36,960 nt of DNA, taken from the NCBI GenBank assembly GCA_027484125.1, contig JAIXUI010000001.1:1-36960 (forward strand), written 5' to 3'. The DNA comes from Bacteroidota bacterium. GTDB taxonomy: Bacteria; Bacteroidota; Bacteroidia; UBA7662; JAIXUI01. This document shows, piece after piece, positions 1,865-15,744 of the stretch; the first letter of the stretch is position 1; each line of letters begins with the position of its first letter. The notes under the pieces are model-generated. The model had not been told where the DNA came from and made no database searches. It saw only the letters and a program-made list of their open reading frames with translations. The translations under genes were made by a program, and so were the position numbers.

Positions 1865-2107
1865 ATGATCATCCAAAGCCTGACCCTCCAAAACTTCCGG
1901 AATATTGGCAAAGAACAAACTTTCCAATTCAACCATCATTTCACTGTTGTTATTGGAGTTAATGGCAAAGGAAAATCAACCTTGCTCCATGGATTGAGAA
2001 TAGCCTGCGGCTGCTTCATGCTCGGTTTGCCCAAAAACGAAGTGAAAACACGAACGATTCAGGAAGAAGACATTCACTTGGAGGATACTCCCTTCACGCA
2101 ATCATAG
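1865..2107 (+). pseudogene. N-terminal stump of a PtuA-like AAA ATPase
   Basis: An 80-residue frame that aligns without gaps to the first ~76 residues of the intact ATPase at 5588: both have QNFRNIG near residue 10, the Walker A box GVNGKGKST at residues 31-39, and the LEDT segment near residue 76. After LEDT the similarity stops and the frame ends four residues later. The intact relative is 428 residues, so everything after the first fifth, including Walker B and the H-loop, is missing. The two copies differ at many bases, so this is a diverged paralogue rather than a recent partial duplication. A matching C-terminal stump of the partner nuclease lies at 3346-3522, on the far side of the Fic gene. 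A 70-80 residue product without Walker B would not be an active ATPase. Confidence 0.85.
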
Positions 2108-2120
2108 AAATAGCAAGACT

Positions 2121-3248
2121 ATGAGTTATTCTATCCCTATTTTACCTCTTTCACAGGAGCTAGAAACCAAATCTGTACTTAAAAAAGCGACTTTGGCACA
2201 CAAGGCACTTGCAGAACTGAATGGGGTATCAGAGAGCATCCCCAACGAGGTTATCATCCTAAATACCTTGTCGCTACAAGAAGCAAAAGACAGCTCGGCT
2301 ATTGAAAACATCATCACCACCCACGATGAATTATACAGCAGCGATAGTCTTGCCCTTCAATTTGCCAGTACTGCTGCTAAAGAAGTACACAATTATGCCA
2401 ACGCCCTCCGAAATGGTTACCAAGAAGTAATTGAAAGAGGCATGCTTACCAGCAATATGATTATTTCAATACAAGAATTGCTGGAAGAAAACAAAGCAGG
2501 GTTTCGCAAGTTGCCTGGCACTGCTCTTAAAAATGAACAAACAGGTGAAACCGTTTATACTCCACCTCAAAGTCATGATGAGATAGTTGCTTTTATGAGC
2601 AATCTAGAAGCTTTTATCAATGATGATAGCCTTTCTGAACAAGATCCACTGGTAAAAATGGCGGTTATCCACCATCAGTTTGAGAGCATCCACCCTTTTT
2701 ATGATGGCAATGGTAGAACAGGTCGTATTATTAACATTTTATATCTAGTAAAAGCGGGACTCCTTCGTTTACCTATTTTATACCTCAGCCGGTATATTAA
2801 CCAGCATAAGTCCGAGTATTATCGCTTGCTACAAAGTACTCGAGAAACCGAAAAATGGGAACCGTGGATACTGTTTATGCTGGAGGCAATTTATCAAACG
2901 TCCATGCAGACCACTTCCATGATTCGACATATAAAAGGCTTGATGCTAAATCATAAACAAGAAATAAGAAGTAAGCTGCCCAAGATTTATTCACAAGACC
3001 TTATCAACAACTTATTTAAGCATCCTTACACAAAAATTGACTTTGTAGTTAACGACCTCCACATAACTCGTCAAACTGCATCTAAACACCTTAATCAGTT
3101 GGTTGATTTAGGCATTTTGACTCTTCATAAATTGGGGAAAGAAAACTACTACATTAACAATGCCCTTTACGAATTCCTATTTCATGCCCCCGAACGCTTT
3201 AAGTTTGACGAAAGCAAAAACTTTAACCCATCACCTCCATCATGTTAA
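2121..3248 (+). CDS. class II Fic family protein with C-terminal winged helix
   Basis: A 375-residue Fic protein, expected to transfer AMP (or another nucleotide) from a nucleotide substrate to a hydroxyl side chain of a target protein. The catalytic motif HPFYDGNGR is at residues 191-199, with all key residues intact. An N-terminal inhibitory motif of the S-x-x-x-E-N type (S58 to N63) places it in class II, in which the helix bearing E62 autoinhibits the active site. The order is Fic_N-like region (about 1-100), Fic core (about 110-240), and a winged-helix DNA-binding or dimerisation domain (about 290-350). It begins 13 nt after the ATPase stump and ends at a hairpin, between the two ends of a broken Septu-like operon. 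Its target is unknown; it could be a stand-alone regulator, a toxin or a defence effector. Confidence 0.9.
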   Translation: MSYSIPILPLSQELETKSVLKKATLAHKALAELNGVSESIPNEVIILNTLSLQEAKDSSAIENIITTHDELYSSDSLALQFASTAAKEVHNYANALRNGYQEVIERGMLTSNMIISIQELLEENKAGFRKLPGTALKNEQTGETVYTPPQSHDEIVAFMSNLEAFINDDSLSEQDPLVKMAVIHHQFESIHPFYDGNGRTGRIINILYLVKAGLLRLPILYLSRYINQHKSEYYRLLQSTRETEKWEPWILFMLEAIYQTSMQTTSMIRHIKGLMLNHKQEIRSKLPKIYSQDLINNLFKHPYTKIDFVVNDLHITRQTASKHLNQLVDLGILTLHKLGKENYYINNALYEFLFHAPERFKFDESKNFNPSPPSC

Positions 3249-3345: not shown

Positions 3346-3522
3346 GAAATTGGAAGTAAAAAACTGATAAACAAAATTTATTTCACCGCTTTCCGAGACA
3401 TTCCAAAACTCTTAACTGCCTTAATCTAAGCCTTTCCCGGCACCGCAGCATACTGCTTCGACCCAACAAACCCATCCCAACTTCTTCCTCGAAACCCCAC
3501 CAACCCCCAAGACCCTGTATAA
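3346..3522 (+). pseudogene. C-terminal remnant of a PtuB-like HNH nuclease
   Basis: In one plus-strand frame, codons from about 3382 to the stop at 3520-3522 spell a tail parallel to the end of the intact HNH protein at 6871-7626. The remnant has PGTAAYCFDPT then PRNPTNPQDPV; the intact gene has PGTATNCFDPT then PRNPTNAADPI. The frame is interrupted once by TAA at 3427-3429, just before the conserved PGTA segment, and is open back to about 3346, where similarity fades. The zinc ligands and HNH motif are absent, so it cannot encode a nuclease. Together with the ATPase stump at 1865 it marks the two outer ends of a former ptuA-ptuB operon. The identification rests on comparison within this window. 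Confidence 0.8.
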
Positions 3523-3539
3523 ACCAAAACAAGCAATCC

Positions 3540-3756
3540 CCATTCCCCATTCTTCATTATCCATTCCCCATTCTCCATTCCCCATTCTCCATTCCCCATT
3601 CTCCATTCTCCATTCTCCATTCTTCATTCTCCATTCTTCATTCTTCATTAACCATTAACCATTATCCATTAACCATTAACCATTATCCATTCCCCATTCC
3701 CCATTCTCCATTCTTCATTCTTCATTAACCATTAACCATTATCCATTATCCATTCG
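3540..3756. repeat. 31-copy degenerate heptamer array
   Basis: 217 bp made of 31 back-to-back 7-bp units with no phase break. The consensus is YCATTNN, and the variants are CCATTCC, CCATTCT, TCATTCT, CCATTAA, CCATTAT, TCATTAA, TCATTAT and, at the end, CCATTCG. Units of the same kind occur in runs (CCATTCT runs, CCATTAA runs), which suggests growth by local duplication. The array stops 3 bp before the -7 promoter element of the next gene, so it occupies the place of the usual -33 region. Open frames on the minus strand here, rich in M-x-N-G-E-W, are a product of the repeat and not genes. Confidence 0.95.
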
Positions 3757-3759
3757 CCT

Positions 3760-3767
3760 TACCTTTG
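3760..3767 (+). promoter_or_regulatory. Bacteroidota -7 promoter element
   Basis: TACCTTTG is an exact match to TAnnTTTG. Only 4 nt separate it from the ATG at 3772, so the transcript would have almost no leader. It would drive the transacylase-like fragment and mnmE. Confidence 0.6.
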
Positions 3768-3771
3768 CGCC

Positions 3772-4161
3772 ATGTACGAAAGGTTGATAGAAGCTGTACG
3801 CCCGCTCCAAAAGCCGGTGTTGCTCATGCTTAATGGCACCGATGACCAAGCTTTACTCACTGCCAAAAAGCTGATTTTAGAGAATCTGGCCGAGGTAGCC
3901 GTAGTGGGGCAGGTCGCCGAAGTCTCCATCGCCTGTTACAAACTCAAAGTCAACGACGCCGCCCTCTATGGCATCCTGCATCCCGACACTTACCCGTGGC
4001 GAGAAGCCCTAATCGCGCGTTTGAAAGAACAGTTTCCGGAAGAAAGTGGCAAAGCCCTCAGTAAAAGACTTCGGGAACCCCGCACCTTCGGCCAACTTTT
4101 GCTGGAACGCGGGGAAGTAGATTTTCTGGTTGAAGGCGATCAAATCCTCCCCCGCGACTGA
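3772..4161 (+). CDS. phosphotransacylase (Pta/Ptb)-like N-terminal fragment
   Basis: A 129-residue protein that resembles the first lobe of phosphate acetyl/butyryltransferases: a start like the VLPEG strand (VLLML, residues 16-20), an AAK helix, and near the end a segment FGQLLLERGEVDFLVEG (residues ~105-121), in the place of the family's FGAMMVEKGDADGMVSG. A full enzyme has about 330 residues, and the catalytic second lobe is missing, so it is unlikely to be an active transacylase. The start has its own promoter element (3760-3767), and the stop overlaps the mnmE ATG by one base (TGATG), which implies translational coupling. It could be a decayed gene or a small stand-alone protein. The family assignment is by eye and uncertain. 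Confidence 0.55.
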   Translation: MYERLIEAVRPLQKPVLLMLNGTDDQALLTAKKLILENLAEVAVVGQVAEVSIACYKLKVNDAALYGILHPDTYPWREALIARLKEQFPEESGKALSKRLREPRTFGQLLLERGEVDFLVEGDQILPRD

Positions 4162-5525
4162 TGTATCAACTGCGCACCGACACCATCGCTGCCCTGGCCA
4201 CCGCTCCCGGCACCGGCGCTATTGCCGTACTTCGCCTTTCCGGCCCCGACACCTTTTCCATCGTTAATCGGCTGTTTAAAGGTAAAAACCTCCTCGAGCA
4301 AGCCGCCAACACCATCCACTTTGGCCGACTTGTTCACCAAGGCGTCACCCTCGACGAAGTGCTGGTGAGCCTCTTCCGCGCCCCGCACTCCTACACCAAA
4401 GAAGACGTCATCGAGATTTCCTGCCATGGCTCCCCGCTCATTGCCGGAAAAATCCTAAAAGCCCTCCTCGACGAAGGCGCCCGACTGGCGGAGCCGGGCG
4501 AATACACCTTCCGCGCATTTGCACGCGGCAGATTTGCCCTCAACGAAGCAGAAGCTGTCGCCGACCTCATCGCCGCCGACTCCGACATGGCCCACAAACA
4601 CGCCCTCGGTCAGTTGCGCGGCGGCTTCACTCGCATGCTCAGCCAACTACGGGAAGAGCTCGTCCACTTCGCCTCCCTCCTCGAACTCGAGCTCGACTTC
4701 TCCGAAGAAGACGTAGAGTTTGCCGACCGTCGGCAGTTGCTGGCCCTTATCCAGCGCATCCGCAGCACCATCCGCGGCCTCAGCGACTCCTTCCAACTCG
4801 GGCAAGTAGTGAGAGAAGGCGTGGCTACCGTGATTGCCGGGAAACCCAATGCCGGCAAGTCCACCCTACTCAATGCCCTGCTGAAAGAAGAAAAAGCCAT
4901 CGTCTCTGACATTCCCGGCACCACCCGCGACGTCATCGAAGACGTGCTACAACTGGGAGGCTACAAATTCCGCTTGCAAGACACCGCCGGCCTGCGCGAA
5001 GCCGCCGACGCCATCGAAGCCATTGGCGTAAAACGCAGCCAGGAGAAAATCCGTGAAGCCGCCCTCCTCCTCTACGTTTGCGACCTCAGTGCCACCACCC
5101 TACCGGAAATCGAAGCTGAAGTCAACAGCCTCGGACATCCGGAATTACCGCGTTTGATTGTGGGGAATAAAGCAGATTTATTGAATGACGACCAACTGAA
5201 ACCCTATCGGGAAGCAGGCGTTTATTGCGTCTCCGGTCTGCAAGGAGCCGGATTGCAAACCCTGGAACAAGCCTTGGTAGAAGCCGTAGAAAACCTGGGA
5301 CAGAACGGAGAAGTCACCCTCACCAACCTGCGCCACGTACAAGCCCTAAACGCCACAGAAGAAGCCCTCAGCAGAGCCGAAGCCAGCCTCAGCAGCGGCA
5401 CCACCGCCGACTGGATTGCTCAAGACATCCGCCAAGCCCTCCACCAACTCGGCCTCATCACCGGCCAAATCACCACCGACGATTTACTCGAGAACATCTT
5501 CAGCAAGTTTTGTATCGGAAAGTAG
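4161..5525 (+). CDS. mnmE: tRNA uridine-5-carboxymethylaminomethyl modification GTPase MnmE
   Basis: A 454-residue protein of normal length for MnmE (TrmE), which with MnmG makes cmnm5U at the wobble position of several tRNAs. The N-terminal folate-binding domain opens with DTIAALATAPGTGAIAVLRLSG. The inserted G domain has G1 GKPNAGKST near residue 230, DTAG near 273 and NKAD near 336. The C terminus is the conserved FCIGK, which carries the essential cysteine. The gene is translationally coupled to the fragment upstream. The last 18 bases, coding for FCIGK and the stop, are the left copy of a 27-bp repeat whose other copy lies at 10492-10518; an element appears to have integrated there without changing the protein. 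As a result the gene is separated from its probable own terminator at 10512-10536. Confidence 0.97.
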   Translation: MYQLRTDTIAALATAPGTGAIAVLRLSGPDTFSIVNRLFKGKNLLEQAANTIHFGRLVHQGVTLDEVLVSLFRAPHSYTKEDVIEISCHGSPLIAGKILKALLDEGARLAEPGEYTFRAFARGRFALNEAEAVADLIAADSDMAHKHALGQLRGGFTRMLSQLREELVHFASLLELELDFSEEDVEFADRRQLLALIQRIRSTIRGLSDSFQLGQVVREGVATVIAGKPNAGKSTLLNALLKEEKAIVSDIPGTTRDVIEDVLQLGGYKFRLQDTAGLREAADAIEAIGVKRSQEKIREAALLLYVCDLSATTLPEIEAEVNSLGHPELPRLIVGNKADLLNDDQLKPYREAGVYCVSGLQGAGLQTLEQALVEAVENLGQNGEVTLTNLRHVQALNATEEALSRAEASLSSGTTADWIAQDIRQALHQLGLITGQITTDDLLENIFSKFCIGK

Positions 5526-5534
5526 TTGAGGGGA
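5508..5534. repeat. attL-like copy of 27-bp direct repeat (mnmE 3' end)
   Basis: The copy starts TTTTGTATCGGAAAGTAG and continues TTGAGGGGA. It covers the last codons of mnmE, its stop, and 9 further bases. It matches 10492-10518 at 26 of 27 positions (C/T at 5516 versus 10500). Confidence 0.8.
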
Positions 5535-5587
5535 GAGTCTAAATAAACTTGTCTATAAATTGAAATTGTAAATTTTTAACTTTAACC

Positions 5588-6874
5588 ATGGAAATCGAAA
5601 AACTTATCCTTCAAAACTTCAGAAATATTGGAGCTGAAAGGACATTTCTTTTCAATAATCGATTCACTGTCATTATTGGGGTTAATGGAAAAGGGAAATC
5701 AACCATTCTACATGGTTTGAGAGTAGCATGTGGAAGTTTTTTCCTTGGATTTCCAAGACATGAAGTTAGAGCACGGCATATTTCACAAGATGAAATCAGA
5801 TTAGAAGATACTAAGCAATTTATTGAAGTAACCCAATTAGTAAAAAAATTTCCGGTAAAGGTAGAAGCAGTCGGACATTTCCCCGGCATTGTAGGACCAT
5901 TGACTTGGCGACGTTTATGGATGCATGACCAATCCGCAACGTCAACTAAATATGCAGATGTAGGCGCAATCAAGGAATACGCTACGGAGATTTACCAATC
6001 TGTAAATGAAAATGGAAAATTTGATTTTCCTATTCCAGTAATTGCGTTTTTTGGAATTTCTAGAGCTGTGGGCAGCGGTAGAGTTACCACCAAAAGCAGA
6101 AAAAATGTATTAGGCAGATTACAATTTCAGGAAGCCTATCAAGATTGGGATGAGATGAAATATTCCAAATTTCATTATGCGGAATGGTTGGCAAATTACC
6201 AAATATTGTTAAGTCAGAAAAAAGAATTCTCTCAGACCAATGAAGCTTTTTTTATTGCAGTTCAAACTGCTTCGAGCTATTTAACAGAAATCCGTTTCTC
6301 GAAAGATGAGTTATGGGTAAAGGCCAAGTTAGACGATGTTGAAACTGATTTAATGCCCTTGAGTATGCATAGTGACGGCATTAGATATTTCACTGAAATG
6401 GTTGCGGAATTAGCTTACAGATGTATTGTTGTAAATGGTAAAGATGGAATTAATGCAGTAAAAAATGCAACCGGCATTGTCATGATTGATGAATTAGACT
6501 TGCACCTTCATCCTAAATGGCAAAGGCATGTAGCCAATGATTTAAAAAGAGCTTTCCCAAATATCCAGTTTATTGTTACCACACATTCACCTTTCATAGT
6601 TCAAAGTTTAAAAAGTGATGAAATCTGGAATCTCGACAAGTTAATGGATGTAGCACCAAACGAGTTAAAGATTGATACTGTAGCAACTGAGATTATGGGT
6701 ATTTCAAGTCCTTACTCTGAAACTAACGAGGAGCTTTATATTAAGAGCAAAAAGTTCATGGAAGACTTAGAATCAAATAAATCTACAGAAGAACTTCAAA
6801 TTGAATTAGCTGAGATTTCAGACCCGGCAGTAAGAGCATTTCTTGAATTACAAAAAATATCAAAGGGAAAATGA
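5588..6874 (+). CDS. ptuA: PtuA-like AAA ATPase of a Septu-type defence pair
   Basis: A 428-residue ATPase of the AAA_21/OLD-like SMC-related group. Walker A GVNGKGKST is at residues 31-39, Walker B with the signature VMIDELDLHLHP is near 297-306, and the switch histidine in VTTHSPF is near 330. The stop overlaps the start of an HNH nuclease by 4 bp (ATGA). ATPase plus HNH nuclease is the make-up of Septu (PtuA/PtuB), an anti-phage system in which the ATPase controls the nuclease and senses infection or nucleotide state. Retrons such as Ec78 use the same pair, but no reverse transcriptase or retron RNA gene is evident here, so a two-gene Septu system is the better reading. The gene starts 62 bp after mnmE, just inside the integrated element, and is AT-richer than mnmE. 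Confidence 0.82.
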   Translation: MEIEKLILQNFRNIGAERTFLFNNRFTVIIGVNGKGKSTILHGLRVACGSFFLGFPRHEVRARHISQDEIRLEDTKQFIEVTQLVKKFPVKVEAVGHFPGIVGPLTWRRLWMHDQSATSTKYADVGAIKEYATEIYQSVNENGKFDFPIPVIAFFGISRAVGSGRVTTKSRKNVLGRLQFQEAYQDWDEMKYSKFHYAEWLANYQILLSQKKEFSQTNEAFFIAVQTASSYLTEIRFSKDELWVKAKLDDVETDLMPLSMHSDGIRYFTEMVAELAYRCIVVNGKDGINAVKNATGIVMIDELDLHLHPKWQRHVANDLKRAFPNIQFIVTTHSPFIVQSLKSDEIWNLDKLMDVAPNELKIDTVATEIMGISSPYSETNEELYIKSKKFMEDLESNKSTEELQIELAEISDPAVRAFLELQKISKGK

Positions 6875-7626
6875 GGCCATTAAATAAAGGAAATACACCT
6901 ACCGATTCTGCAGGGAACCCTATTTCGCCTACAGATTACAAAAGTTGGAGAAAGGCACTTATAGACAGAATTGGCGCCTATTGTGCCTATTGTAATATGC
7001 CAATAAAACATGCTTTACAAGTAGAACATGTAGTACCAAAAAATCCTCCCACTGGTTACACAGCAGGAGAACCATTAGCTTGGTCAAATATGCTGCTCGC
7101 CTGTGGTCCATGTAATAATGCAAAAGGTAATGCTCCTGTCGACGCTATCACTTATTACCTTCCGGAGGAACACAATACACATCTTCCATTTATAATTGTC
7201 CCTCATGCAGCAGATCCTAAGCATGCTATCGTTATGGAAAGGTCAGGGTTAAATGCAAATCAATTCCAAAAGGCACAACGAACCATCGCATTGACTGAAT
7301 TAAATACAACAGATGAACGCGCCAATATTGTAGACCTTCGAAGTCGTGAACGGAAATCGGCTGCAATAACTATTAATTCAACACGAAACATTTACAACCT
7401 TGCTTCAGCACATAATCCTAACCTCGCTGCTGAACATGTGGTTCAAGTAGCGTCTCGAACAGGCTTTTTTAGCTTGTGGTACGAGGAATTTATGAATGAC
7501 CCTTTGGTTATGGAAAAGCTAACAAATAATGCAATTATTCCAGGCACAGCAACAAATTGTTTTGACCCTACCGATGGTTACATGCCCATTCCTCGAAACC
7601 CTACTAATGCTGCTGACCCCATATAG
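6871..7626 (+). CDS. ptuB: PtuB-like HNH endonuclease
   Basis: A 251-residue HNH nuclease, the expected effector of the Septu-like pair. Zinc ligands C38/C41 (CAYC) and C78/C81 (CGPC) flank the catalytic region, with H53 in VEHVVPK, N73 in WSNML and N82 in CNNAKG. This spacing is that of the PtuB/TIGR02646 group. The C-terminal part ends with the conserved PGTA-x2-CFDPT and PRNPTN segments, and the same tail survives as a relic at 3346-3522. It is translationally coupled to the ATPase by an ATGA overlap, as expected for a toxic nuclease made with its controlling partner. It cleaves nucleic acid in the cytoplasm; the exact substrate (DNA or tRNA) cannot be told from the sequence. Confidence 0.83.
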   Translation: MRPLNKGNTPTDSAGNPISPTDYKSWRKALIDRIGAYCAYCNMPIKHALQVEHVVPKNPPTGYTAGEPLAWSNMLLACGPCNNAKGNAPVDAITYYLPEEHNTHLPFIIVPHAADPKHAIVMERSGLNANQFQKAQRTIALTELNTTDERANIVDLRSRERKSAAITINSTRNIYNLASAHNPNLAAEHVVQVASRTGFFSLWYEEFMNDPLVMEKLTNNAIIPGTATNCFDPTDGYMPIPRNPTNAADPI

Positions 7627-7968
7627 TTGAAGAAAGAGAGTATCGTACCCTACCTATAATTAAACTTTTATTCTTTGTTGACCGAAATGCCTGAGTATTG
7701 GGAGGCAAAAAGGCTACGCACACTTTAAAGAACATTTAGAGAAGGGATATCCTGATGAATCCTTGTTGGCAGCCACGTAATGATGCAGCTATCCATGAAT
7801 GAAAATTAATTTATATGTTTTCAAGGCAGGCTAACATTCAATATTATATCAATGGAATATTGGCCTTTTACCTCCAATTTGGTCAAGTAATAACTTTACT
7901 AAATACTTCCAATAGTCAATTAATAACTTTACCTCTTACCTTCAGATGTCAATCTATAACTTTACTTT
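7627..7968. other. 342-bp spacer with relic sequence and regulatory repeats
   Basis: No gene is visible. A short frame near 7725-7780 reads FKEHLEKGYPDESLLAAT before a stop, which looks like a gene relic that I cannot name. The last 90 bp contain three operator-like repeats, listed separately. An open frame starting at 7815 runs through the repeats into the next gene out of frame and is not supported. Confidence 0.5.
7882..7965 (+). promoter_or_regulatory. three 18-bp direct repeats, 33-bp period (operator/promoter)
   Basis: GTCAAGTAATAACTTTAC (7882-7899), GTCAATTAATAACTTTAC (7915-7932) and GTCAATCTATAACTTTAC (7948-7965) repeat with an exact 33-bp period, about three helical turns, so bound proteins would sit on the same DNA face. 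Each repeat contains TAACTTTA, one base from the TAnnTTTG element. The last repeat ends 3 nt before the ATG of the helix-turn-helix gene. Autoregulation by that protein is the obvious inference. Confidence 0.7.
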
Positions 7969-8427
7969 ATGAGCAAGAAATCACTCCAACTGCAACATCT
8001 CAACAGCAAAATGCTGGCATTTGCGGCACTTAAACAGGTAGCCATGCCACCCACCGGATGGATAAAAGCCATCCGCACTGCCTTGGGTATGTCTATGCAA
8101 CAATTGGGTAAAAAGCTAAATATTTCCAAGCAAGGCGTCATGGACATTGAAAAGCGGGAAAAAGACGGTTCCATTACCATCAAATCCCTGCGGGAAGTCG
8201 CCCGTGCTATGGATATGCAGTTGGTGTATGGGTTTGTACCCAATGACGGATCATTGGATGCCCTCATTAAAAAACGGGCCACCGAGTTGGCCACCCAAAT
8301 AGTGATGCGAACCGCCAACACCATGAAGCTCGAGGATCAGGCCAATTCAAAAAAACGAATTGAAGTCGCCATCAAGGAAAGGGCAAATGCCATTCAAAAT
8401 GATATGCCTAAAATCTTATGGGATTAA
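7969..8427 (+). CDS. mobile mystery protein A (XRE-type helix-turn-helix)
   Basis: A 152-residue protein with a central helix-turn-helix (about residues 31-80, including GMSMQQLGKKLNISKQGVMD), as in the mobile mystery protein A family (TIGR02612). That family occurs next to mobile mystery protein B in mobile or accessory regions; its function is not established, but an antitoxin-like repressor is a fair guess because the B protein carries a Fic domain. Its stop overlaps the next gene's start by 10 bp. Three direct repeats lie directly in front of its ATG and probably serve as its operator. Length is normal for the family. Confidence 0.85.
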   Translation: MSKKSLQLQHLNSKMLAFAALKQVAMPPTGWIKAIRTALGMSMQQLGKKLNISKQGVMDIEKREKDGSITIKSLREVARAMDMQLVYGFVPNDGSLDALIKKRATELATQIVMRTANTMKLEDQANSKKRIEVAIKERANAIQNDMPKILWD

Positions 8428-8596
8428 ATTTAGCATACATTGATGGCCAAACCCCTTTAGAGGAAGAAGAGAAAGACGGGCTTCTCATTCCTACCATTGC
8501 CACCCGTGGCGAGTTAGACGAATTTGAGCAGCAGAATATAGAGCAAGCCGTACAATGGACTTTGGGGCGTTCTTTTAAGCCGGATAGGGTTTTTAC
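8418..8596 (+). pseudogene. mobile mystery protein B, truncated by an IS end
   Basis: The frame opens with YIDGQTPLEEEEKDGLLIPT and continues through TRGELDEFEQQNIEQAVQW to PDRVFT, matching the start of mobile mystery protein B (TIGR02613), a protein of about 200 residues with a Fic/DOC domain. Similarity stops after the codon ending at 8596; the frame then runs into IS-end DNA and stops at 8618. Only about 60 residues remain and the Fic active site is absent, so no Fic activity is possible. Helix-turn-helix protein A upstream is intact, so the pair is broken on the presumed effector side. Confidence 0.8.
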
Positions 8597-8740
8597 TGTG
8601 TGCTCCGTTTTGAACTGACCCCCTAATCCGGCAAATTGACCCCGTGTTTGGATTGATTTTAATCTATCCATTCCGTTAAGTTGCCCCCAAGATAGGACTG
8701 TATTCGATATGCCCTAATCCGGCAAATTGACCCCCATTTT
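8597..8740. mobile_element. relic of an insertion sequence end with multiple terminal repeats (IS21-like)
   Basis: Starting with TGTGTGCTCCG at 8597, the segment holds repeated motifs of the form TCCG-n-TTGACCCCC. Two 23-bp copies beginning CCCTAATCCGGCAAATTGAC are identical (8621-8643 and 8712-8734). Degenerate copies occur near 8603-8623 and 8670-8687, so the spacing is roughly 45 bp. Several short repeats inside an end beginning with TG are typical of the IS21 family. No transposase is present, so most of the element has been lost. The segment interrupts the mobile mystery protein B gene. Confidence 0.6.
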
Positions 8741-8797
8741 TTTAGTTTTTATTGTTTGCTTGCTTCAGTTAAATGAACGTAGAATGGGAATTCTTAG

Positions 8798-9070
8798 AAA
8801 AGAAATGAATACCCTGCGAATATCTCTGGGCAAACTACCCAGAATGGTTCGGAGAAAAGTAGGGAGAAAAGTAGGGAGAAAAGTAGGGAGAAAATACTTG
8901 GACATATATCTTCTAATGCTTTAATAACCATGGCTGAACTCGCTGATGCCATTGGTATTTCTGTAAAGGCGGTCGAAAAGCAAATTGCTCTGTTGAAAAA
9001 AGAAGGTAAAATTGAACGTATTGGTCCTGACAAAGGCGGCCATTGGAAAATAAACGAAGGTAAAACATGA
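8798..9070 (+). pseudogene. C-terminal remnant of an AlbA/RecG-like ATP-binding regulator
   Basis: The frame is open from after a TAG at 8795 to the TGA at 9068. It encodes a repeated EKSR linker and then a winged helix (ALITMAELADAIGISVKAVE, then KKEGKIERIGPDKGGHW). This is the characteristic C terminus of the AlbA_2-type ATP-binding proteins often labelled RecG-like or transcriptional regulator, which have a glycine/lysine-rich repeat linker before the winged helix. The N-terminal catalytic region is absent; the DNA before it is IS-derived. An internal ATG at 8930 would give a 46-residue winged-helix peptide, but no sign of expression is seen. A three-copy 12-bp tandem repeat lies in the linker. 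Confidence 0.7.
8851..8894. repeat. 12-bp tandem repeat in linker of the remnant
   Basis: Three perfect copies of GGAGAAAAGTAG (8851-8886) followed by 8 bases of a fourth. In the remnant's frame it codes for repeated EKSR. Because 12 is a multiple of three, copy-number change would keep frame. Confidence 0.9.
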
Positions 9071-9192
9071 TACACCGCTTTTCTTCAAGGATAAACAACT
9101 TGGGCGAAACCTTTTTTAAGAACGCCGTGGAAAATGCAGTCAGCTATGTCTGTATTGCCGCATATTCCTTAAAAGCCACTTTGCCACCTTGA
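9067..9192 (+). CDS. 41-codon ORF overlapping the regulator remnant
   Basis: An ATG overlaps the preceding stop (ATGA at 9067-9070) and opens a 41-residue frame with FFKNAVENAVSYVCIAAYSL. The wording vaguely recalls the beginning of phospholipase D-like or helicase proteins (alternating hydrophobics around A-V-S-Y-x-x-I-A), so it is more likely the stump of a once co-transcribed gene than a small protein. Nothing after 9192 continues it. Reported at low confidence because of the overlap geometry. Confidence 0.3.
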   Translation: MIHRFSSRINNLGETFFKNAVENAVSYVCIAAYSLKATLPP

Positions 9193-9244
9193 GAGCCAAC
9201 CCATGTAAGCTTGTGTTCCAATCATACTTTACCCAACTCCAAAC

Positions 9245-9268
9245 CTTCATTGAAGTACTTCAATGAAG
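9245..9268. repeat. perfect 24-bp palindrome
   Basis: The half-site CTTCATTGAAGT is followed directly by its exact reverse complement ACTTCAATGAAG. With no loop this is a dyad binding site rather than a good RNA hairpin. It lies 67 bp before the 125-residue gene at 9336. A 21-codon frame begins inside it (ATG at 9263) and is not supported. Confidence 0.7.
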
Positions 9269-9335
9269 CGAACCATCAAAGAACTAACCCTGATTCACTT
9301 AGTAGAATTGGCCTATCAATTCATTTAAGGAATGT

Positions 9336-9713
9336 ATGAATAATCAAAAGGAAGTCCCTACAGCTTCAGGGAAAACAGTTAAAGTACTGGATCGCCACAT
9401 TCCGACTGTAGATTATTTCCTTAGAATTTGGATTTCCAACAAAGGCAGACCAACTATTCACCGAGCTACTTACTACCGATGGTTGAATGATGAAAGCGAC
9501 AAAAGCAAAAGCGACACTATGAAAAACATTGAGGAACTGTTTAAAGCCCTAGCAACGGACATTGTAGCCAATGAGGGCAAAGGCATTTTCTATGCAAAGA
9601 ACCGTTTAGGAATGACCGATAAGCCTGTAGTAGAATCAGCCCTTAGAGAGCAGCCGCTATTCCCTGACTTAACAAATGTGCTTCAGATTGAAATATTGAG
9701 AAAAGGAGATTGA
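9336..9713 (+). CDS. 125-residue protein, phage small-terminase-like (tentative)
   Basis: The protein has a possible helix-turn-helix around residues 38-50 (GRPTIHRATYYRWLN) and then an acidic/lysine stretch and a segment GKGIFYAKNRLGMTDKP (about 83-99). The combination of a T-Y-Y-R-W-L recognition helix with a later K-N-x-x-G-x-x-D motif resembles small terminase-like DNA-binding proteins of phages and mobile elements, but I cannot confirm it. It is complete, begins with ATG 10 nt after a stop in the upstream spacer, and lies inside the mnmE-integrated element. Its neighbours give no further hint. Function unknown; a DNA-binding role is an inference. Confidence 0.5.
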   Translation: MNNQKEVPTASGKTVKVLDRHIPTVDYFLRIWISNKGRPTIHRATYYRWLNDESDKSKSDTMKNIEELFKALATDIVANEGKGIFYAKNRLGMTDKPVVESALREQPLFPDLTNVLQIEILRKGD

Positions 9714-9801
9714 GCAAAACGACACAGTGAATGTTAAATATTCCCAAACCGTTGTTCCAAATACTTTGATGACCTTCTTTTGAAAAAAAACAACAAAATC
9801 C

Positions 9802-10365
9802 ATGAAACGAAACAATTTTATTTTGAAAATGACCCTGATTCTTGCTCTTGTCACTGCTTCAAACTACGTAAAAGGGCAAGATATAGTCTTACCTAGTGAC
9901 AGTACAGGCAAAACCATTTATACTGAAGTCGTTCCAGTAGATTCTACAAGTAAAAATGAGCTTTACTTAAGGGCGAAGGAATGGTTTGCGAGAAGCTATA
10001 ACTCTTCTAAGTCAGTAATTCAGATTGATGATAAAGAAGCAGGCGTAATCTCAGGGAAGGCGTTTACTAAAGTATTTGTAACGATGATGGGAGTAACTAA
10101 ACATGCAGGAAATATCCATTATTCAGTTACCGTTTATTTTAAAAATAATCGTTATAAATATGAAATAAAAGATTGGATATGTTCTGCTGATGGCATAAGA
10201 AGCCTTGTGGAAACTTCTGAAGTAAGCAACATTAAACCCGATGCTTGGAGTGTAAAATTTTGGGAGAAAGCAAAATCTACTGTAAATGTTGAAGCTCAAA
10301 CGCTGATTAATTCTTTGAAAGAAGAAATGGCAAAGCGTTCGCCCGCACAAAGCAACGACTGGTAA
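9802..10365 (+). CDS. secreted DUF4468 domain protein
   Basis: A 187-residue protein with a signal peptide (basic MKRNNFILK, hydrophobic core, likely cleavage after the G of VKGQ at residue 25). Residues 38-130 fit DUF4468, a TBP-like fold domain found in secreted Bacteroidota proteins: YTEVVPVDSTSKNELYLRAKEWFARSY is a typical opening, reported here only as a pattern of V-x-V-D-S then L-Y-x-R-A-K-E-W-F. It acts in the periplasm or at the cell surface; no biochemical activity is known for the family. It is the last gene before the right att-like repeat and ends ahead of a 14-bp-stem hairpin, so it looks like cargo of the element. Confidence 0.75.
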   Translation: MKRNNFILKMTLILALVTASNYVKGQDIVLPSDSTGKTIYTEVVPVDSTSKNELYLRAKEWFARSYNSSKSVIQIDDKEAGVISGKAFTKVFVTMMGVTKHAGNIHYSVTVYFKNNRYKYEIKDWICSADGIRSLVETSEVSNIKPDAWSVKFWEKAKSTVNVEAQTLINSLKEEMAKRSPAQSNDW

Positions 10366-10401
10366 ACCAACCAGCCTTTAAAATTTCCCCAAGAGTACGT
10401 C

Positions 10402-10447
10402 TTTTTGAAGTTTTTGTACCCTATTTGTATCTTAAAAACTTCAAAAA
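10402..10447 (+). terminator. long AT-rich hairpin after the DUF4468 gene
   Basis: TTTTTGAAGTTTTT (10402-10415) and AAAAACTTCAAAAA (10434-10447) are perfect reverse complements with an 18-nt loop. It lies 36 bp after the DUF4468 stop and 45 bp before the right att-like repeat. A terminator is possible; because it is an inverted repeat next to the attachment site, an integrase arm site is an alternative. Confidence 0.5.
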
Positions 10448-10491
10448 TCTACATTAACCTGACTTTCAATCACTTAGTAATATAAGTTACT

Positions 10492-10518
10492 TTTTGTATT
10501 GGAAAGTAGTTGAGGGGA
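10492..10518. repeat. attR-like copy of 27-bp direct repeat
   Basis: The copy starts TTTTGTATTGGAAAGTAG and continues TTGAGGGGA. It encodes FCIGK and a stop in the same phase as the mnmE end but has no gene in front. It matches 5508-5534 at 26 of 27 positions. Confidence 0.8.
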
Positions 10519-10536
10519 AGGGGCAGACATCCCCTC
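10512..10536 (+). terminator. displaced mnmE terminator hairpin
   Basis: GAGGGGA (10512-10518) pairs with TCCCCTC (10530-10536). The 5' arm is shared by both copies of the repeat, but the 3' arm exists only here. This suggests the hairpin originally followed mnmE directly and was separated from it by the insertion. It also lies just before the convergent end of the helicase gene at 10547. Confidence 0.55.
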
Positions 10537-10546
10537 TCTACCTTTC

Positions 10547-13500
10547 TTATTCTCCTAATACAAACAGTGATCTCAATTCACTGTTTGATAAATTACCAAT
10601 CCAGTTTTCACCGGTACTGACCGTAAGTTCTGCAAGATTCTTTTTTGATTGAATCATGGAATTAATACGCTCTTCAAAGGTGCCCTTTGTTATAAATCTA
10701 TGTACCATCACTTTATTTTTCTGCCCAATTCTAAATGCTCTATCGGTAGCTTGGGCTTCTACTGCCGGATTCCACCATAAATCGTAATGAATCACATGAC
10801 TTGCCGCAGTAAGATTAAGTCCGGTTCCGGCAGCTTTTAAAGAAAGAATAAATATTCGATTCGAAGATTGATTTTGAAATGCATCAACCATTTCCTTTCG
10901 TTGTTTTAAATTACAACCTCCATGATAAAATAGCGGTACTTCAGAAAAATGCTCAGTGATAAAACGTTTTAATAATTCACCCATCTCAGTGAATTGCGTA
11001 AAAATTAAAACCTTCTCATTATTTTCCAGGATCCCTTCTAAACGATTCAATAAAAGTTCCGTTTTTCCGGAAAGACTAGAGTCATATTGCTTATCTTTTA
11101 GAAATTGAGATGGATGATTACAAATCTGTTTTAAAGCTAAAATCATTTGCAAAACCAATCCTTGACGAACAAAAAGGGTCCTTTGATTATCCAACTGAAT
11201 TCCCTCGATATCGGCAATAGCCTTTTGCAAAGTATTTTCGTATAAAGCAGCTTGCTCCTTGGTTAAGCTCGCAAAACTATCGATTTCAACCTTATCAGGT
11301 AAATCATTGATAATTGATTTATCTGTTTTCAATCTTCGCATCATAAAAGGAGCTGTAAGCGTCTTTAATTGTTTTAAGGCTTGCTGATCTTGTCGGTTTT
11401 GAATAGGATAAGCAAGTTCTTCCTGAAACTTCTGAAGATTCCCTAAATACCCTCTATTGGCAAAATCCATGATACTCCACAATTCACTTAGACGATTCTC
11501 TACAGGAGTACCACTCATGGCAATAAATAATTCAGCCGGAATACTCTTAACCGCTTTACTTTGACCGGCCGCAGGATTTTTTATATTCTGCGTTTCATCA
11601 GTTACCAATAACTTCCATTTAATGGCTTTAAGTTTATCTGCATCACTACGTAAAGTTCCATAAGACGTACATACAATATCCACTTCTTTCAGTTCCTCCG
11701 ACAATTTACGTTGCATTCCATGGTAAAGATGAAAACGCAAAGTAGGAGCAAATTTCTCTATTTCTGATTGCCAATTGGTGAGTAAGCCGGTTGGAGCAAC
11801 CAATAAAACTTTTGAATTTTCTAACGCTTTATCCTCCTTGAGCTTAAGGATTGTGGTGATAACTTGCAAGGTTTTACCAAGTCCCATATCATCTGCCAGA
11901 ACACTACCAAAGCCAATTTTAGCGTTTCGGTACATCCAAGAATATCCACTTTGCTGGTAAGGACGTAGATTTGCTTTCAAATTTTGTGGAAGAGGAATTT
12001 CTTTCAACTCCGTTAGCTTTCTAATTTCTTCCTTCAAACTTTCATCTATTTGAACGGGAGCACCCATATAATTTCCAGTCAGCGCAACCGCTAAAAGTTG
12101 TATTCCGTTAAGCTTATCTTGCTTTTCGAAATGTTTACTCAGCTTAACGAGGTCCTCTGCATTTGCTTGAATGTAATTCGCTTTATAACGAATCAAACCA
12201 TTAGATTGTAATAACAATTTCTCAAACTCCTTGACATCTATTAGCTCATCACCAATGGCTACTTTCCATTCAAAACTAAGCAGATGGTCTAAACGAAAAA
12301 ATCCTGCATTTTTCTCATCTTTAGGTTTAATTTTAAGACTAACTTTTGGTTTTAATATATGCTGAAGTGATTTAGGCAATAAAATTTCCAAGTCCAATAG
12401 ACTAATAACAGGTATCATTTCTAAAATAAAAGGAGTAAAATCAGAGATGCTCAGCTTAAGTATATGTGCTTCTTTATTATTAATTAAAGTATCTAATTGA
12501 GGAATAAATTGACTTACCTGAAATACTGATTTTAAAATTGAAAATCTCGATAAGTCATACTCTTTATTAATTAGTATCTCTCGAATTGGAACAATTTTTC
12601 TGTCCAATCTAATACTAATCTGAATACCAAAATTATGGATATCAATTTCACTTACTTCAATTACCGGCTTATACTCACCCAAGGATAAATAATAACGTTC
12701 GAGCCACTGCTGAATAGCACCTGGAATAGCAGATTCACCAGGTTTGTTAAACATACCATAACCCTTCCCAAAAAACAATGATTCCAGAGGACCTGACGAT
12801 GAAGAAGAAAGAAAGACCGTTATAATTTCAGTCAATAACAAAGAAAGCACGCGTTCATTGGCTTCGATACCCCAAAGAGGCTCAACCTCTTCACTACCAT
12901 TCTTAACTAAACAATATAAATATTCAGGCAAATAAATAGAATTTACCAACTTGCGAACCTCCGGACTCAACATTGCAGGCAACCATCTAATCAGATATCC
13001 ATCCTTAGAGGAATAATAAAAAAGCCTTGGCACTACTGCACCTTTGGCAAGTAGGTTGAGGGCTACAAGTATAAGCTGTCGGGATATTTGCACCGTTTCT
13101 TGATATCGTGGCAATTCCGAAACAGGCAATTCCCAAATTTCATTGATAATAAGTTTTATAGAAGACCATTCATCCATTTCATGTTGCGCCAACCAAACAT
13201 TTGTTTGGTCATCGGCATTTTCTAAAAAAGCAATATCAGTATCAAATGCAATTAACCTATTAGTTGATAATGCTTCCTGATCAGCAGGAGCAAGAAGTGA
13301 CGAACGCTTGCCATCTAGTACTCTTTGTGCCTCTTTAACAGCAATTTTAAACTTAGAGGAATATATTGATTTAAAATCTCCCTTTCCATTGTAAAAAGAG
13401 GGATTTTCTGTCAACAAAGCATGTAAGGAAATACCTAAGTCTTGAATAGAGGCGAAATTAAAAGACTCATTGATTGGCTTTGAGCTTAATTTATTTTTCT

Positions 13501-14736: not shown

Positions 14737-15744
14737 ATGGAACTAAACAAAAGCATTATCCGGCAAATACAAGCCATAATCTCTACTGCAAGAGAAAAAG
14801 CCATCCGCTCGGTAGATACCGAACGGGTGCTGATGTATTGGGAAATTGGTCGGGTGATTTTTGAAGAGGAGCAACACGGAAAAGACCGTGCCGAGTATGG
14901 CAAGTTCCTGATAAAGTCTATTTCAAAGGAATTTCAGCCCCAGCTCGGAACCGGATTTTCGGTGCGGCAATTAGAACGATACAGGCAGTTTTACCGCATG
15001 TTTCCAAATACGTCCGCACTGCGGACGCAATTCAGTTGGACTCACTATAAAACGCTATTAAGTATTGATAATCAAGACAAAAGAGCGTTCTACATAGCCG
15101 AAACGGTTAAAAATAACTGGACCGCACGACAACTGGAAAGACAAGTAAACAGCCAACTTTTTGAACGGCTGTTACTAAGCAATGATGTACAGAGCGTACT
15201 GGCAGTAGCCAGGGAAGAAAAACTTCCCTCCGATGCCAAAGAAATCATTAAAGATCCCATAGTTTTAGAATTCCTGGGCTTAAAGCGAGAAGCAGCTTAT
15301 TACGAAAAAGATATAGAAAAGGCCATCATCTCCCACATTCATGATTTTATTTTAGAACTGGGTAACGGCTTTGCTTTTGTAGCCAGGCAAAAAAGGCTGC
15401 ACATCGAGGGCGATGAATTTTTTGTTGACCTCGTTTTTTTCAATCGATTGTTGCAATGTTTTGTATTGGTAGAGATCAAAACCGGTAAACTCACCCATCA
15501 GGATATTGGACAATTGCAGATGTATGTAAACTATTACGACCGCTTCGAAAAACAAGACTTCGAAAATTCAACCATCGGCATTTTACTCTGTACCGATAAA
15601 AACGATGCAGTGGTAAAAATTACCTTGCCCGAAAACAACAAAACCATCATTGCCTCTAAATATCAATTGTACCTGCCATCCGAGCAACAATTGATAGAAG
15701 AGGTAAAAAAGGAAATAGAAAAACTAGACCAATTAACCTCATAG
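14737..15744 (+). CDS. DUF1016 / YhcG-type PD-(D/E)XK nuclease
   Basis: A 335-residue protein with an N-terminal DUF1016_N helical domain (about 10-150, with YWEIGRVIFEEEQ and GFSVRQLERYRQFY) and a C-terminal PD-(D/E)XK domain. D231 in FFVDLVFFN and E246-x-K248 in VLVEIKTG form the metal-binding site; Q265 in DIGQLQMYVNYYD is the conserved glutamine. Length and motifs are normal, so the protein should be active. The family is widespread on mobile and defence loci and near restriction systems; its natural substrate is not well established. It begins 28 bp after the end of the WYL stump, and the start ATG is preceded by an A-rich stretch. Confidence 0.93.
   Translation: MELNKSIIRQIQAIISTAREKAIRSVDTERVLMYWEIGRVIFEEEQHGKDRAEYGKFLIKSISKEFQPQLGTGFSVRQLERYRQFYRMFPNTSALRTQFSWTHYKTLLSIDNQDKRAFYIAETVKNNWTARQLERQVNSQLFERLLLSNDVQSVLAVAREEKLPSDAKEIIKDPIVLEFLGLKREAAYYEKDIEKAIISHIHDFILELGNGFAFVARQKRLHIEGDEFFVDLVFFNRLLQCFVLVEIKTGKLTHQDIGQLQMYVNYYDRFEKQDFENSTIGILLCTDKNDAVVKITLPENNKTIIASKYQLYLPSEQQLIEEVKKEIEKLDQLTS

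Follow-up and report, generated by a model that had tools for sequence, protein, structure and literature searches.

What kind of element inserted the roughly 5 kb of DNA that lies behind mnmE in this Bacteroidota genome, and what has become of it? The window analysed here is a stretch of 36,960 nucleotides (contig JAIXUI010000001.1 of assembly GCA_027484125.1), and the segment in question, positions 5508-10518, carries a Septu defence gene pair between two copies of the mnmE end. A reading made from the letters alone (the sequence-only reading) had proposed a genomic island integrated at the 3' end of mnmE. Here we describe evidence that the island is probably what remains, after decay, of a phage satellite whose family integrates into the last codons of mnmE by tyrosine recombination in Bacteroidia. 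Features of the locus are summarized in Table 1; G numbers denote the genomes compared and L numbers the loci and contigs.

The island is bounded by a 27-bp direct repeat with one mismatch (TTTTGTAT[C/T]GGAAAGTAGTTGAGGGGA), of which exactly two copies exist in the whole 3.33-Mb genome when up to 3 mismatches are allowed. The left copy contains the final codons of mnmE (FCIGK and stop) and no mnmE precedes the right copy, so that the repeat and its position are as the sequence-only reading had described them. By a rough estimate, a match of this length and identity would arise by chance within 9.5 kb with a probability of the order of 1e-7. The right copy also folds together with the bases beyond it into a long hairpin (-20.9 kcal/mol; z only -1.44, with 18 of 200 shuffles equally stable), for which folding revealed no comparable partner downstream of the left copy. 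This fits a native mnmE terminator that was displaced by 5 kb through the insertion.

A codon-degenerate form of the mnmE end (TTYTGYATHGGNAARTAR, with only wobble changes allowed) was searched for in 395 Bacteroidia genomes and gave at least one exact match in 311 and at least two in 81. When two such ends lay on the same contig within 60 kb they were invariably on the same strand (30 same-strand versus 0 opposite-strand pairs, in 27 genomes including that of the window), and these paired loci were extracted for analysis, the longest ones in part. Directly before the core, ACT is present in 15 of the 31 copies that do not end a tblastn-confirmed mnmE, mostly as TTACT, and in 0 of the 24 confirmed mnmE ends; the right copy in the window is immediately preceded by GTTACT. 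The 16 copies without ACT are those of L154, L155, L157, L158 (both), L162 (second), L163, L164, L168, L169 (both), L170, L178, L179, L180, and L182, several of which have mnmE-like codons upstream. Core and element-side flank together form an inverted repeat (TTACTTT / AAAGTAA), which would represent paired recombinase sites.

A tyrosine integrase lies just behind mnmE, on the same strand, in 8 of the 31 extracted loci (mutual identity 38-67%); the one scanned, from L152, contains the domains Arm-DNA-bind_5, Phage_int_SAM_5, and Phage_integrase. A profile built from the eight sequences (A1) was searched over the 395 genomes and the best 30 matches were examined. The mnmE core was present on the same strand within the 1.5-kb upstream flank of 25 of these and mnmE itself in that of one more (L193), placing the family behind mnmE in 26 of the 30 best loci (18 of 22 when the eight profile-building sequences are left out), with no mnmE in the flanks of the other four (L201, L204, L205, L207). 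Tyrosine recombinases next to mnmE, for which the sequence-only reading had advised a search, are found in other Bacteroidia genomes, including one of the window's order (G002, behind mnmE in L191). The island itself contains no integrase relic detectable by tblastn at 1e-4 and the window genome no match to the mnmE-type integrase at 1e-20, in agreement with the earlier remark that none is visible; the nine Phage_integrase matches of the genome all lie on contigs other than that of the window.

The ACT core was also recovered in 16 IMG/VR contigs, nine of which have an mnmE-type integrase directly after it on the same strand (L222 and L225, two of the nine, look like one element; a weak integrase match, located elsewhere, occurs in L218, a tenth contig). 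Due to their direct terminal repeats of 127, 114, and 127 bp, respectively, L216, L220, and L226 are taken as circles of 6,053, 7,050, and 7,683 bp, and these are the attP (donor attachment site) form that a junction of right arm and integrase side is predicted to give. L171, L216, L220, and L226 possess both an integrase and a specific attachment site; the window island has the site only. The gene set of L220 comprises the integrase, two HTH_17 (AlpA-like) genes, an AAA_25 helicase-like gene, a DUF6371 gene, whose product we take to be primase-like, and a small terminase (TerS) gene, with no large terminase (TerL) found, and L152 and L171 each encode a Phage_CRI replication protein.

The right end of the window island shares its finer structure with these elements. 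Its TTGTAY arm repeats stand at -78 and -67 from the core, as they do in L220 and L226, and those of L176 at -77 and -67. In a survey of 31 ACT ends, including viral contigs that possibly match the core by chance, the motif occurs in 13 of the 30 other ends (shuffle mean 3.5, maximum 9), and it occurs in 1 of 17 mnmE-side ends; it is important to note that left-end and right-end motifs were chosen after the ends had been inspected and that the shuffles preserve base composition only. Because GTTACT and the arm repeats recur in the circles at equal spacing, the right copy has the appearance of a genuine attachment site. The same-strand pairs, the integrase family behind mnmE, and these element-type arms together uphold the proposed integration at the mnmE 3' end.

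The island additionally retains a gene of the integrase-bearing elements. The open reading frame (ORF) at 9336-9713 is 62% identical over 98 residues to its counterpart in L171, the integrase-bearing element behind mnmE in G395, and 75% identical over 92 residues to a gene of circle L220; in all three the gene is near the right core, followed by only small or accessory ORFs, and the window copy lacks approximately the first 24 residues of its homologues. At 1e-5 the family occurs in 3 of the 395 genomes, namely that of the window, G395, and G358 (where the gene adjoins a Phage_CRI replication gene), and tblastn at 1e-5 gave no match to the window protein in 50,697 phage records. Viral-contig relatives are numerous: 389 were confirmed and 80 kept, and a large terminase lies within 1.5 kb of 72 of 77 homologues (of the other five, two leave no space for one and three lack it), as judged with TerL profiles built from five neighbours named TerL by PHROGs, which are themselves counted in the 72. 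Since the model of the window protein was poor, fold evidence was taken from a viral-contig homologue, whose model (predicted local distance difference test score, pLDDT, 82) matches the P22 small terminase (Foldseek probability 1.00, E 1.7e-3; Z 9.2 over 116 residues, root-mean-square deviation 4.2), the next entry reaching Z 4.6. The ORF is a small terminase and a backbone relic. To the sequence-only reading, all of the content had looked accessory (a Septu-like pair, mobile mystery proteins, an insertion sequence (IS) end, and relics); it had overlooked the small terminase and the hairpin at the right copy.

Small terminase genes for which no TerL was found occur in the window island, L171, L220, and L245 (only 3.4 kb, its link to mnmE being putative); the two profiles detected no TerL in the island, L152, L165, L171, L172, L216, L219, L220, L226, or L245, and other TerL families would escape them. 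Among the viral-contig homologues, no large terminase was found within 1.5 kb in L246, L249, and L289, and L246 and L249 are possible further satellites. The TerS gene was the sole match in the window island to elements of the L220/L171 type, with none to their AlpA-like helix-turn-helix (HTH) or replication genes. The DUF4468 gene had no tblastn match at 1e-3 across the loci compared; a pairwise, two-protein search revealed a distant counterpart in circle L226 (21% identity, E 5.7e-7), on the opposite strand and directly before attP.

From these observations we propose the following course of events. The integrase of a complete member would recombine the attP core ACT-TTYTGYATHGGNAARTA, often preceded by TTTGTAC arms, with the end of mnmE, placing the element behind mnmE, which would keep its codons, and a second core at the right end. 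L220 DNA would probably be packaged by a helper phage, since a small terminase gene is present in this circle and no large terminase gene was found. In the window, the survivors would be the right attachment site (attR), arms included, together with the TerS relic and the DUF4468 gene; on the order of loss that we infer, the left half with its integrase and replication genes would have gone, and the Septu pair, arriving as cargo, and the mobile-mystery pair would have come to stand in its place. The island of today is presumably immobile. The sequence-only reading had instead suggested a minimal or trans-mobilised element; decay is more likely, given that the TerS relic is still present near the right end of the island, where an integrated and a circular element also have the gene.

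Table 1. Features of the mnmE locus and the island behind it (window coordinates)
Feature	Coordinates	Strand	Evidence
mnmE, target gene; final codons form the attachment core	4161..5525	+	sequence, mnmE comparison
Left repeat copy, mnmE side, left attachment site (attL) position; not followed by recognisable arm-type repeats	5508..5534	+	
ptuA, Septu ATPase	5588..6874	+	PADLOC PDLC00278, E 1.8e-92
ptuB, Septu HNH nuclease	6871..7626	+	PADLOC PDLC00315, E 5.5e-49
Mobile mystery protein A (HTH)	7969..8427	+	TIGR02612, 143.1 bits (cut-off 122.6)
Mobile mystery protein B, truncated 66-aa stub	8418..8618	+	TIGR02613, positions 2-50 of 186
IS-end-like direct repeats	8621..8734	no strand	23-bp repeat at 8621 and 8712
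Small terminase (TerS) relic; gene common to mnmE satellites	9336..9713	+	homologues, TerL neighbours, P22 TerS fold
DUF4468 protein	9802..10365	+	Pfam
Arm-type repeats TTGTAC / TTGTAT, 11 bp apart, -78 and -67 from core	10414..10430	+	
GTTACT, element-side bases of attachment core	10486..10491	+	
Right repeat copy, attR core	10492..10518	+	
Hairpin from right core and bases beyond; probable native mnmE terminator	10501..10547	+	folding

Several results weigh against a decayed mnmE satellite. A backwards control of the search pattern gave 30 hits in 29 of the 395 genomes, and part of the approximately 100 extra mnmE-end copies is thus due to chance. An empty site was not found for any member, as tested in several other genera. 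Identity between the two repeat copies extends 9 bp beyond the stop codon. The repeats of the other pairs inspected are shorter, and the extra bases are not explained by simple integration. Because they are shared past the stop codon, they suggest host DNA on both sides of the island; one possibility is that the left half was acquired through homologous exchange with a strain having Septu behind its own mnmE. Of 47 integrase-side ends, 21 have a motif that is missing after the left copy, a weak point given that 26 of the 47 are likewise without it (many of these 26 show a T-rich leader by eye). TerS is present in only two of the eight integrase-bearing elements scanned (L171 and L220, and not L152, L165, L172, L216, L219, or L226). 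The fold match involves a mostly helical model, for which the tool warns that Z below approximately 13 may reflect a common arrangement only, and the model of the window protein itself (pLDDT 64.6) has P22 TerS as its best Foldseek match at E of about 1. Finally, L217 combines an mnmE-type integrase and the ACT core with portal, large terminase, scaffold, and capsid genes, unlike classical phage-inducible chromosomal islands (PICIs); as it has head genes and the same core, phages use the mnmE site too.

Comparison with relatives is constrained by distance, the mnmE of the nearest genomes compared being approximately 55% identical at best and only the order being shared with the window genome. 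The window helicase was not found near mnmE in any of 110 loci (L003-L112), many of which have short flanks only. Four candidate empty sites were rejected: in Pontibacter, the genes beyond the right end of L036, an integrase-bearing island of Pontibacter arcticus, do not lie close to mnmE in eight other Pontibacter loci; in the genus of G070 (13 genomes), the right flank is not common at mnmE; G304 and G040 have no flank in common; and the gene shared by G059 and G268 is a transposase (rve domains) and was dropped. The sequence beyond the right core in G070 (right end of L165) corresponds in part to the left end of a different mnmE element (L200 in G297), which suggests tandem accretion. In G187 (L157, L158, and further contigs) there are seven mnmE-end copies, several with a common flank, as in a tandem array of elements.

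The site and the cargo could also be accounted for by a passenger cassette, i.e. a defence module lying between cores that was never autonomous and owed its movement to mnmE integrases acting in trans from other elements, similar to clusters of attC sites lacking integron integrases (CALIN) or cis-mobilizable elements (CIMEs). Other mnmE islands without a found integrase are indeed compact and carry defence genes: a cyclic-oligonucleotide-based antiphage signalling system (CBASS) in L161, AbiE in L176, type I restriction-modification (RM) and TmtA in L175, type III RM in L154 (whose right copy lacks ACT), and the candidate PDC-S41 in L153. L174 (with a weakly HipA-like protein), L175, and L176 moreover keep the right-end TTGTAY arms. 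These islands and proteins were picked by eye, with L173 left out, and provide a pattern rather than a rate; L155 (no ACT) has a Fic protein and L159 has no PADLOC match, neither of which speaks for a defence cassette. Behind mnmE in G014, L161, and G268 (by eye), the integrase module has left a relic of its first small gene, showing that similar decay has occurred elsewhere. Given these relics, a window island that keeps, near its right end, a gene common to integrase-bearing elements, and a left arm that cannot be recognised, we consider a passenger cassette unlikely.

An origin from an ordinary mobilizable or conjugative integrative element, which acquired a phage small terminase by chance and of which a remnant is left, would agree with the large cargo of some integrase-bearing mnmE elements (in L166 and L167, genes resembling the restriction genes of L175; in L165, efflux-type genes, by eye), and the Phage_CRI replication protein of L152 and L171 fits plasmid-like transfer as well. 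A chance acquisition is at odds with the recurrence of TerS without found TerL in L171, L220, and the short contig L245; the three circles come from a viral collection, and a search that was not exhaustive gave no classical relaxase in the Pfam matches of ten L220/L171/L152 genes, which makes this origin improbable. Least credible of all is that the mnmE end was copied with no recombinase involved, through segmental duplication or an assembly join. The 9 extra identical bases and the unrecognisable left arm are what such an event could leave, but the ACT bases and the arm repeats at fixed spacing are not mnmE sequence and the 30 same-strand pairs extend across the class, so that we regard it as very improbable. 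A decayed satellite that had integrated at mnmE remains the reading we prefer.

Phage satellites are known chiefly from Proteobacteria and Gram-positive bacteria. The satellite families named in PMC11389934 agree with this bias, and PMC12324425 covers other small marine elements without terminases. As far as the accessible portions of the open literature extend, they contain no description that we recognised of Bacteroidota phage satellites or of an mnmE attachment site there; closed journals lie outside this scope, and island catalogues (TIGER/Islander) may include such islands unremarked. According to PMC6092414 and PMC10803314, PICIs and phage-inducible chromosomal minimalist islands (PICMIs) are small integrated elements with int, an AlpA/HTH_17 regulator, primase/replication genes, TerS in some, anti-phage cargo, and no structural genes, and the PICMI search model accepts HTH_17 as AlpA (PMC10803314). 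L220 resembles a phage satellite in its gene content. The mnmE elements differ in their occurrence in Bacteroidia, their mnmE 3' end site, their own integrase family, and their AAA_25 and DUF6371 proteins; furthermore, phage contig L217 uses their core, their helper dependence is putative, and the window copy is without int and replication genes.

According to PMC5704250, Salmonella genomic island 1 (SGI1) and its relatives in Gammaproteobacteria insert at the trmE/mnmE 3' end by means of a tyrosine integrase, and a CIME is an element that has lost its integration and transfer genes and kept its att sites. The window island shares the mnmE 3' end with SGI1; SGI1 is mobilised by IncA/IncC plasmids, whereas some mnmE elements carry phage packaging genes. 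Compared to a CIME, the window has attR with arms and no integrase found, and its left arm is unrecognised. The PtuA ATPase and PtuB HNH nuclease genes are adjacent, which is the Septu type I arrangement, and have strong PADLOC matches; nothing notable differs from known Septu, and the pair is presumably cargo.

Further features were noted around the island and behind other mnmE genes. Upstream of mnmE, window positions 1865-2107 encode an 80-aa N-terminal stub of a second PtuA (PADLOC, 8.6e-20), next to a SoFic-type Fic gene at 2121-3248. An imperfect repeat array of the CCATTCTCCATT type, with 14- and 21-nt spacing, occupies 3512-3783 between the Fic gene and the gene preceding mnmE. Beyond the helicase, positions 14737-15744 encode the PADLOC candidate defence protein PDC-S02 (4.3e-140). 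Within the island, the repeats that follow the mobile mystery genes are presumably IS21-like. In G002, a DUF5655 / Piwi-like pair lies behind mnmE with the integrase and a DNA methylase gene (L231, 17460-19896; a weak match below the Pfam cut-off), and such a pair is also found behind mnmE in G014, next to the integrase-module relic.

For the family as a whole, the evidence tilts towards a widespread group of Bacteroidia satellites with its own integrase lineage for the FCIGK-stop end of mnmE, in which a wobble-tolerant core would allow crossing between genera, elements would accrete in tandem, and swapped-in defence systems (Septu, CBASS, AbiE, RM) would outlast the decayed backbone as integrase-less islands. 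A family with a site, an integrase, attP circles, and TerS is open to direct tests, and its integrase would be usable for genome work. The small integrase-less defence islands behind mnmE may thereby find their explanation in the mnmE satellite family.

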